In this document: positions 24,007 to 63,125 of the stretch, in pieces
Position numbering within the stretch: position 1 is the stretch's first letter
Layout: every line of letters starts with the position of its first letter
Source of the DNA: Pontibacter sp. G13
GTDB lineage: Bacteria; Bacteroidota; Bacteroidia; J057
Length of the DNA: 64,000 nt
Assembly: GCF_031851795.1 (NCBI RefSeq)
Contig: NZ_CP134698.1
Location: forward strand, 1-64,000
Direction of reading: 5' to 3'
Notes under the pieces: model-generated
Database searches by the model: none
What the model was told of the DNA's origin: nothing
The model's input: the letters and a program-made list of their open reading frames with translations, nothing else
Position numbers and translations under genes: made by a program

Positions 24007-24069
24007 TTCTCAAAACTGTCTCTTGAAACTATCATTCTCAAAACTTATCTTTACCATGAGTTTTGAGAA
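24007..24069. other. Putative res subsites upstream of the resolvase
   Basis: The element TTCTCAAAACT occurs at 24007-24017 and 24035-24045, and inverted (AGTTTTGAGAA) at 24059-24069. The spacing of about 28 bp, and the position immediately before the resolvase start at 24081, match the architecture of resolution sites recognised by Tn3-type resolvases. The same motif forms the palindrome at 23937. Confidence 0.6.
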
Positions 24070-24080
24070 ACAGGAACACC

Positions 24081-24653
24081 ATGCTTGTAGGATATGCCCG
24101 GGTATCGACCAAGGACCAAGACCCAGCCCTCCAACTGGATGCGCTTCGGGAGGCGGGATGCGGTCGGATTTTCGAGGAGCAGGCTTCCGGGGCACAACGC
24201 GATCGTCCCCAACTTCGGGCGGCCCTGGACTATCTGAGGCCGGGGGACACCCTTGTGGTCTGGAAACTGGATCGGCTGGCCCGTTCCCTCAAGCAGTTGA
24301 TCGAGACCGTGGAAATGCTGGGCGAGCGGGAGATTGGGTTCCGATCCCTCACCGAGACCATCGACACGCAATCCCCGGGAGGCAAGCTCATCTTCCATCT
24401 ATTTGCGAGTTTGGCGGAGTTTGAGCGGGAGATGACGCGTGAACGTACCCGTGCGGGTCTGGAGGCAGCCCGTCGCCGAGGCAAGTTTGGAGGTAGACCC
24501 CCGGCATTGGGAGCCAAGGAAATCGAGATGGCCAAGACCCTGCTCCAGAATCCGGACCTGAGCATTTCGGATATTGCCGAGCAGCTCGGGGTATCGCAAG
24601 CCACCCTGTACCGCTACCTGCCGGGTGGGAGAAGCAACCTTGACGAATCCTGA
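24081..24653 (+). CDS. Serine recombinase (resolvase/invertase family)
   Basis: This is a 190-residue protein. The catalytic domain begins MLVGYARVSTKDQDPALQLD with the nucleophile Ser in YARVST, continues with LVVWKLDRLARSLKQLIET and SLAEFEREMTRERTRAGLEA, and ends in a C-terminal helix-turn-helix (DLSISDIAEQLGVSQATLYR). The length is that of Tn3-type resolvases. The start codon at 24081 follows the putative res site directly, an arrangement that lets the protein repress itself. No transposase is visible in the window, so it may be a solo resolvase or a relic of a larger element. It is far more GC-rich than the lipoprotein genes to its left. Confidence 0.92.
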   Translation: MLVGYARVSTKDQDPALQLDALREAGCGRIFEEQASGAQRDRPQLRAALDYLRPGDTLVVWKLDRLARSLKQLIETVEMLGEREIGFRSLTETIDTQSPGGKLIFHLFASLAEFEREMTRERTRAGLEAARRRGKFGGRPPALGAKEIEMAKTLLQNPDLSISDIAEQLGVSQATLYRYLPGGRSNLDES

Positions 24654-60911: not shown

Positions 60912-61314
60912 TCATCTAAATTCCGCTCTGCAAAAAATGTCTAGTGCGGTTCCCTACACAGGGAAAAATTCAGCAAAATTCCAGCGGGGCAGTACACCCT
61001 TGGTTTAGTTCCGGTTCATTCTAGTAATTCCCAAACTCGAGTCTCTGGGGGATTAGCCCTACTCGCTTGGCTTCTTCGGGGGTGAAGAAGCATAACAAAT
61101 ATACGCTTGGTACCCTGGCCAGCGCCTATACTTTTTCCCGAAACGGAGATGATTTGCCAATATATTGATCGGAGTTTGCTCCAAACTCCCGGTTTCGTGG
61201 GATTTCTGGGTGAAAATTTCGCCTTATCCAGACCCAAAATTCACCTGACTATACACCTTATATATATAGTACATTTTCAAGGGTCTGGATAAGTCCGTAT
61301 TTATGCATAAGTAA

Positions 61315-61333
61315 ACATTTAAATACTTAAATG
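61315..61333 (+). repeat. AT-rich direct repeat, copy 1
   Basis: ACATTTAAATACTTAAATG is identical to 61479-61497 and nearly palindromic (CATTTAA-ATAC-TTAAATG). The copies are 164 bp apart. Confidence 0.65.
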
Positions 61334-61478
61334 GCACAATATATAAACTCCCAGAGTGACTCCTAAGCTTCTGCCAATTTCACAATTGATACATTTATAC
61401 ATAAACACCTCTATACTTATATACACATAAAATTAAAAAGCCTACTAAACTAAAACCTTAAAACACCATAAGCCCAAA

Positions 61479-61497
61479 ACATTTAAATACTTAAATG
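61479..61497 (+). repeat. AT-rich direct repeat, copy 2
   Basis: Identical to the copy at 61315-61333. It is likely to be a binding site for a small DNA-binding protein, given the parA gene downstream. Confidence 0.65.
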
Positions 61498-62139
61498 CTC
61501 AAGCTTAAAAGATCTGCAATATTTATACTCAAACAAGCAGCTACTCTTAAATATTGCTACATTTACACATTGTCGTATTTAGAGCAATAAAAATATATTA
61601 TATATATTTACTTATTTAAGGTTAAACGTATTATTCATATAAACACTTTCATACAAAAATATCCTTATGTTTAATAAAGATTTACACCTAAATATCTAAA
61701 CATAGAAATATTAGAGCATACAAAATCCTGAATTTTTATATATTTAATATAAATTGGTATAATTACTTATCAATTTATTTCCATTTATAAGTAGTTAATT
61801 ATTTTACACTAAAATGTTTAAGCGCAAACATACTTATATAGCAAAGAATCTAAATATTGAAGTGTAAATAGATTTAATATATCTTAGATTAAAGACATCT
61901 ATATTTTTATAAATAATCATGTATTTAATGTAAATACCTTTAAGCTTAAAAGCATTTGCAGGTTAAAATCTCATAAATATATAAAAGGTTAAATATTGAT
62001 ATATAAAAAGGTCAAAAAGCTAAAACATGTGTACATATATATTTTGTTACATTCAGATGTTTTGGTATTTTTGAATTGAAAGGTAAAAGGGTATAAGCAT
62101 TTCAGTATTTAGGCATTTAAACCCTGCTAAGAACGGATC

Positions 62140-62733
62140 ATGGCAAGAGTCATCGTCATTGCAAACAGTAAGGGAGGCACAGGCAAGAGCACGATTACGC
62201 TCAACCTGTACCAGTACTTCATCGCAAACGGAGCGAGCTGCGGAATTCTGGACACAGACCTCCAGCAGAGCATCACCCTCCTCGACACGAACTACGAAAA
62301 GAACATCGCGCTGGTGGATCCACACACGAGTCCCGAGGCGCTGAAAGATATCGACTACGAGATTGTCCTGGTCGACACGCCACCATACCGGACCGGAGCT
62401 GGTGGATTCATGTCGGTGGCGGATTTCGTCCTGATTCCCGTGAACCCATCCCCCATGGATGCGATGGCGATCCACTCGATCCTTGCGGACGTTCAGGAAG
62501 CTGGCGTGAAACATGCGGTCGTGCTGAACCGTGTAGCTCCCAAAACCTCCCTGACCGATGAGATCCGGAAAACCATCGAGGCATTTGGATGCAAGGTATT
62601 GCAGACCCAGATCAACAACCGGGTGGCTTACTCCAGATCCCTGATCTATGACGACCTCGATTCGGAGGCCAATGCGAAAGCTTCGGTAGAACTTTCCTCA
62701 CTCGCAAACGAAGTGCTAAGACTAATGCTATAA
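62140..62733 (+). CDS. parA: ParA-type partition ATPase (short, type Ib)
   Basis: This is a 197-residue protein with the deviant Walker A (ANSKGGTGKSTITLNLYQYF), a Walker A' aspartate in LDTDLQQS, and Walker B-like IVLVDTPPYRT. It lacks the N-terminal helix-turn-helix of type Ia ParA proteins, so it belongs with the short ParA/ParF group that works with a small ribbon-helix-helix partner. Such a partner gene follows 8 bp downstream, and the AT-rich repeat block lies directly upstream, where type Ib partition sites normally lie. It may serve a plasmid, an integrated element or positioning of another cargo. Confidence 0.88.
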   Translation: MARVIVIANSKGGTGKSTITLNLYQYFIANGASCGILDTDLQQSITLLDTNYEKNIALVDPHTSPEALKDIDYEIVLVDTPPYRTGAGGFMSVADFVLIPVNPSPMDAMAIHSILADVQEAGVKHAVVLNRVAPKTSLTDEIRKTIEAFGCKVLQTQINNRVAYSRSLIYDDLDSEANAKASVELSSLANEVLRLML

Positions 62734-62741
62734 CACAAATC

Positions 62742-63125
62742 ATGGCGAAGAACAAGAACACGATGGATCTGCTGGGCAAGTTGGGAAAGACAGAAGTTCC
62801 CCCAGCCAAGATGGTAGCACCGATTCAGGAGATCAAGGAAGTGCAGCCGGCACCACAGCCAGAGCCGCAACCTGTCAAGCCCAAACGGAGGCCGACTCCC
62901 AAGGCCACCAAGCAGGAAGCCGCAGAACCAACTCCCAAACGAATGGGCAGGAAGCCGGACTGGGAAGAGGACGTGGCCTTGGTGAAGACCACCTTGCAGA
63001 TTCCGGAGGACACCTTCTTCGCCATGAAGTTGGCCATGGCCAGTACCCATCGGGACTACAAATCCCAAAACAAGTTCATCAACGACGCCCTCCAGCACTT
63101 CATCCAGAGCAGGAAACGGAAGTAG
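62742..63125 (+). CDS. Ribbon-helix-helix-like partner of ParA
   Basis: This is a 127-residue protein. Residues 1-80 are Pro/Lys/Gln-rich and probably disordered (PEPQPVKPKRRPTPKATKQE). Residues 82-127 form a small DNA-binding domain: VKTTLQIPEDTFFAMKLAMA, a beta strand followed by two helices, then NKFINDALQHFIQSRKRK. This fits ParG-type or DUF3408-type partners encoded with short ParA proteins. It probably binds the repeats upstream of parA and regulates the operon. Confidence 0.75.
   Translation: MAKNKNTMDLLGKLGKTEVPPAKMVAPIQEIKEVQPAPQPEPQPVKPKRRPTPKATKQEAAEPTPKRMGRKPDWEEDVALVKTTLQIPEDTFFAMKLAMASTHRDYKSQNKFINDALQHFIQSRKRK

Follow-up and report, generated by a model that had tools for sequence, protein, structure and literature searches.

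The window analysed here, 64,000 bases long in all, corresponds to bases 1-64000 of contig C3 (92,894 bp), which belongs to a 7.67-Mb genome in three contigs together with C1 (7.54 Mb) and C2 (43 kb). What we see directly near the end of this window and further along the contig is the gene order of a par cassette, the homologies of its proteins, an 8-bp array upstream of it that recurs in relatives, and a rep gene with iterons on the same replicon. The features are as follows:

61283-62128, + strand: centromere-like array with the degenerate 8-bp unit WAWAYNTW (consensus) in about 95 complete copies
61313-61333: first copy of a 21-bp exact direct repeat (element 61315 of the sequence-only reading)
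61477-61497: second copy of the 21-bp exact direct repeat (element 61479 of the same reading)
62043-62073, + strand: possible Bacteroidota-type parA promoter, with TTTG at 62043, a 19-bp spacer, and TATTTTTG (TAnnTTTG) at 62066
62140-62733, + strand: parA, encoding a 197-aa ParF-type Walker ATPase with the deviant Walker A motif KGGTGKST
62742-63125, + strand: gene of a ParG-like predicted centromere-binding protein of 127 aa, with PIQEI (Q29) in its N-tail and a C-terminal ribbon-helix-helix (RHH) at about 81-125
C3:67620-68305 (to 68319; L003:3620-4319): iteron array of Rep_3, 11 copies of GACTTN5TGAAG on one strand
C3:68381-69658: Rep_3 initiator gene (PF01051 3.6e-12, PF21205 9.7e-10)

A sequence-only reading of this DNA had recognised an AT-rich block immediately followed by the genes of a short ParA and a small partner, and this order was confirmed. 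That reading had called the block almost pure A/T, but its measured G+C is 24% over 910 bp and 23% in the core. It had also drawn attention to two identical near-palindromes, and here the identity stands, as an exact 21-bp direct repeat of a length reached by 0 of 300 dinucleotide shuffles (shuffle maximum, 18), but the palindromicity does not: the longest palindrome, with one mismatch, is of 18 bp, a length equalled in 139 of 300 shuffles, and the emphasis on two palindromes is therefore unsupported. Hardly any short words in the block were distinct from those of the shuffles. Read as a set of palindromes, the block had concealed its dominant signal, an 8-bp periodicity that extends across its whole length and is the strongest on the replicon.

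Each unit of the array is a tetramer, AYNT or AYNC, set in A/T spacers; the count of about 95 takes in 2 outlying units at 61200-61215, the longest unbroken run covers 222 bp or 27.8 units (61359-61580), and the orientation flips in the final 101 bp (62028-62128), at the parA end, where the array stops 12 bp or less before the start of parA. Over the 1000 bp upstream of parA, the autocorrelation at 8, 16, 24, and 32 bp reached z values of 6.7, 6.5, 5.4, and 3.9 against dinucleotide shuffles, the observed values at lags 8, 16, and 24 were attained by 0 Markov sequences (orders 1-4, 500 trials each), and the 8-bp signal persisted with one copy of the 21-mer removed. A cyclic HMM working in both orientations gained 128 log units at period 8, compared with 8-52 at periods 7, 9, and 10 and with at most 23.7 in 30 shuffles, and in a scan of the whole of C3, the top 5 of 370 scan windows by 8-bp signal all overlapped the AT-rich block. 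The 61283-62128 array thus provides the repeat array upstream of the par genes that is typical of a type Ib centromere. The Bacteroidota-type promoter has the consensus TTTG plus TAnnTTTG, and the possible parA promoter of this type sits inside the array; this candidate is weak because about 0.2 TAnnTTTG occurrences are expected by chance in the scanned stretch, and its location is only faintly suggestive of autoregulation. A sigma-70 promoter scan stayed at chance level, and no terminator was found.

The ParA protein, at 197 aa, has the short length (about 200 residues) of type Ib ParA proteins. It matched the NCBIfam ParA partition model NF041546 at 2.1e-36, under the curated cut-off, and its best solved match was ParF of TP228 (4dzz) over residues 3-195, that is, full length, with an E of 3.8e-15, and it shares 29% identity with a ParF-type protein from an IncX1 plasmid of E. 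coli. This ParA family is present in 2660 plasmid records. Among its closest relatives, identity is 30-38%; many of these are encoded on Bacteroidota plasmids adjoining a small hypothetical gene, a replication initiator is often found near this pair, and several of the homologous par loci are on complete circular plasmids. Searching genome contigs with ParA as a single query found nothing, and with an alignment as the query mostly distant relatives; no nucleotide-level relatives of the locus were found in plasmids, nor any relatives among viral contigs.

The partner was harder to place, and its earlier description as an RHH protein holds through its relatives and a structure model, but not through Pfam, where the 127-aa protein alone had no RHH match and no other match. 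A pairwise search in plasmids returned one weak match only, pM02_c5. In contrast, a profile of 20 partners matched RHH structures in the PDB, including omega (weakly), and a profile built from 19 of them, without the window partner, gave that protein 32.9 bits, when the top score among 2000 shuffles was 11.3. Against the 16 typical relatives alone, with three divergent long-loop relatives dropped, the score was 11.1 vs. 10.6 bits, which equals chance, and so the RHH match leans on these three. The single-sequence structure model had low confidence and no ribbon, whereas a model from a five-sequence alignment showed an extended segment followed by two helices at 82-125, giving an RHH-like C-terminus, with low pLDDT outside it. 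The best structural match of model residues 82-127 was ParB of pCXC100, with a modest Z of 4.0 (3.0 A, 46 residues), and a profile-profile comparison of the partner family with annotated ParG proteins reached 95% probability (E 2.5e-8). With moderate strength, these profiles and the model point to a small protein with a C-terminal RHH and a flexible N-tail, and hence to the small RHH DNA-binding partner that type Ib systems encode directly downstream of parA. Partners of this type usually have 100 or fewer residues (PMC5389482), and the present one, with 127, is longer. Within its N-tail, in the stretch PxQ(E/K)(V/I)xP(V/I), Q29 is the only residue that is invariant across the 20 partner sequences (alignment A4). 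The tail of TP228 ParG stimulates the ATPase via an arginine finger-like motif (PMC7308502), and by likeness to it, the PxQ motif may be considered a candidate ParA-activating motif.

The 8-bp pitch is not confined to this locus. We pooled the 250 bp upstream of parA from 19 homologous loci, leaving the window out, and the strongest lags were 16 (Z 9.4), 8 (7.9), and 24 (5.8); 57 AT-rich control stretches from the same loci gave -1.0 at lag 8 and -1.8 at lag 16. Lags 8, 24, and 16 also emerged in 12 loci mostly from other phyla, while individually some relatives, such as G245 and G218b, have no 8-bp signal. The same periodicity test was applied, as a positive control, to plasmids on which ParG is annotated, and the pooled lags were 8 (Z 6.2), 16 (5.5), and 24 (5.1). 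From the E. coli IncX1 ParG plasmid, the unit WWACTCAT was recovered without prior input, and ACTC is the box of TP228 parH. This unit is consistent with the tetramer boxes published for TP228, the ACTC box having been produced independently by the control; in parH, the tetramer boxes are degenerate and their spacers AT-rich, and ParG is an RHH protein with flexible tails (PMC7308502). The unit models of C3 and of pHALHY03, a plasmid of Haliscomenobacter hydrossis, each score the other's block above all 100 shuffles, but the window-trained model fits the sequence of most other relatives poorly; in most relatives, as judged from these sequences, the pitch appears to be conserved and the letters mostly not. 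On a contig of 2.5 Mb (L041, G218), a ParF-type parA was also preceded by a very regular 8/16-bp array; this locus may belong to a chromosomal system or represent an integrated element.

Among the known systems, TP228 parFGH is like C3 in that a short ParA precedes a small RHH protein and boxes in AT-rich spacers lie upstream, and the 8-bp pitch is common to the C3 array and the ParG plasmids in the same test. They differ in that the C3 array alone is about 850 bp, compared with about 1.2 kb for the whole TP228 module (PMC5389482), in the unit (AYNT/AYNC in C3, ACTC in TP228), and in the longer N-tail with the PxQ motif of the C3 partner, whose link with ParG is through the family profile only. 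Plasmid pHALHY03, of 92,189 bp and therefore close to C3 in size, also has a ParA with a long-tailed small protein and a rep gene nearby, and its upstream stretch (17-25% G+C over 600 bp) carries an 8-bp array with the unit TAWANKTW, similar to that of C3; its ParA, however, is only 33% identical, and its partner is annotated as a hypothetical protein. We found no characterisation of the pHALHY03 par locus and, within partial literature coverage, no Bacteroidota plasmid whose type Ib partition locus has been characterised. The delta/omega system of pSM19035 shares with C3 an RHH protein and contiguous short repeats overlapping promoters (PMC9499535), binding being predicted here, but it has 7-bp heptads WATCACW, 7-10 per site in six sites, instead of 8-bp units in one long array. 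ParB of pCXC100, the best structural match mentioned above, is an RHH centromere binder with direct repeats in its centromere (PMC5016525), although its identity with the C3 partner is low (22% over 46 residues).

As to the replicon, the sequence-only reading had rightly noted the lack of a rep gene in the window, where none is present among the annotated genes, and had pointed beyond 64 kb, where the Rep_3 gene indeed lies about 5 kb downstream of the par cassette on the same contig. This gene is the sole Rep3 match in the whole genome, and it is preceded by 10 copies of a 19-bp repeat; the GACTTN5TGAAG core, spaced mostly by 32-33 bp in the main cluster, has 0 copies on C3 outside 67620-68305. 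Iteron plasmids are laid out in this way, and with iterons and Rep_3 at about 68 kb, the likely origin is some 5 kb from the par cassette. A separate contig of 92.9 kb with its own Rep_3 gene and iterons supports C3 as a plasmid replicon, and the cassette is, of course, off the main chromosome contig. The G+C of C3 is 55.8%, and a 20-kb stretch sampled from C1 has 47.1%. Since no terminal overlap or inverted repeats were found at the C3 ends, its circularity is unproven. C3 additionally carries a serine resolvase/invertase gene at 24063-24653 of the window (PF00239 3.5e-46), possibly a multimer-resolution system or a transposon remnant; next to it, at 21-24 kb, the G+C dips locally. It also encodes a second ParA at C3:92101-92859 (L004:8101-8859, minus strand), beside a KilA-N domain protein (C3:90873-91874), for which no ParB and, checking across the contig ends, no AT-rich or periodic DNA upstream were found. 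A ParB_N-domain partner, as in type Ia or canonical ParABS systems, is absent from C3, the only PF02195 match of the genome being on C1.

With a ParF match over residues 3-195, a ParG profile alignment at 95%, and the 8-bp pitch of ParG plasmids, the proposal of a ParF/ParG-type cassette is borne out, and we regard the locus as very probably a type Ib partition system of plasmid C3, with a mechanism like that of TP228 parFGH. The array could instead be no more than a long operator through which the par operon regulates itself, the centromere being elsewhere on C3, given that the array overlaps the likely promoter, that it comes as close as 12 bp to the start of parA, and that a type Ib centromere binder doubles as a repressor (PMC5016525); nevertheless, some 95 units far exceed the needs of an operator, no C3 stretch elsewhere has an equal 8-bp signal, and the TP228 centromere also lies upstream of its par genes (PMC5389482), so that we consider this improbable. 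Even less probable is a chromosomal positioning system or the remnant of an integrated element; the sequence-only reading had left standing an integrated plasmid, a replicon end, and a chromosomal positioning system. The window itself yielded no rep gene, chromosome-like genes such as a SpoU methylase are present on C3, and circularity is unproven, but Rep_3 and iterons are present on C3 itself, a contig of its own, and several homologues are on complete circular plasmids; on this evidence, the cassette does not belong to an integrated plasmid, and among those options, a plasmid replicon is supported. A role of the AT-rich block mostly as a replication origin or DNA-unwinding region, with incidental periodicity, would suit its composition and its place near parA on a plasmid, yet this strikes us as scarcely credible, because the Rep_3 gene with its own iterons is 5.5-6 kb away from the block and because relatives too have the 8-bp pitch before parA, and it matches that of ParG plasmids.

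Type Ib centromere binders are RHH dimers on upstream repeats that repress their own operon (PMC5016525), and in TP228, ParG coats parH, while a nucleoid ParF meshwork captures and moves the complex (PMC7308502, PMC5389482). By analogy, partition of C3 would involve dimers of the 127-aa RHH protein binding successive 8-bp boxes over 61283-62128, thus coating the array, with their disordered N-tails, probably via the conserved PxQ(E/K)(V/I) motif, touching ATP-bound ParA on the nucleoid. This contact would trigger ATP hydrolysis by ParA, and the resulting cycles may pull or relay sister plasmids apart, sharing the copies between daughter cells. Because no more than 12 bp separate the array from the parA start, binding of the RHH protein should also repress transcription of the par operon. 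DNA binding, ATPase stimulation, autoregulation, and an effect on plasmid stability are accordingly what we infer for the C3 locus.

The ParF/ParG-type cassette is of a kind already known; three features appear to be new, namely the array length, the 8-bp pitch shared by diverged relatives, and the conserved tail motif. On contig C2, a second ParA (273 aa) and a 138-aa long-tailed small protein are encoded on the minus strand (L007:1077-1493 and 1465-2286), with no rep gene among the C2 proteins scanned, and the AT-rich stretch upstream of these par genes, to the contig end, has a 7-bp and not an 8-bp pitch. This suggests that two RHH systems could coexist in one cell through distinct spacings, 7 bp on C2 and 8 bp on C3. 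The pitch test also offers a simple, alignment-free means to recognise centromeres where ordinary repeat finders fail, and it works on Bacteroidota plasmids, while the array reading predicts the binding pitch, the orientation changes, and the candidate ParA-activating motif. In summary, we are inclined to believe that ParF-type centromeres of several phyla keep an exact 8-bp pitch of degenerate boxes whose letters drift freely, that this design has been scaled to many tens of units in C3 and pHALHY03, and that it would be read by RHH proteins with a PxQ(E/K)(V/I) tail motif, which may be the trigger of ParA in Bacteroidota.
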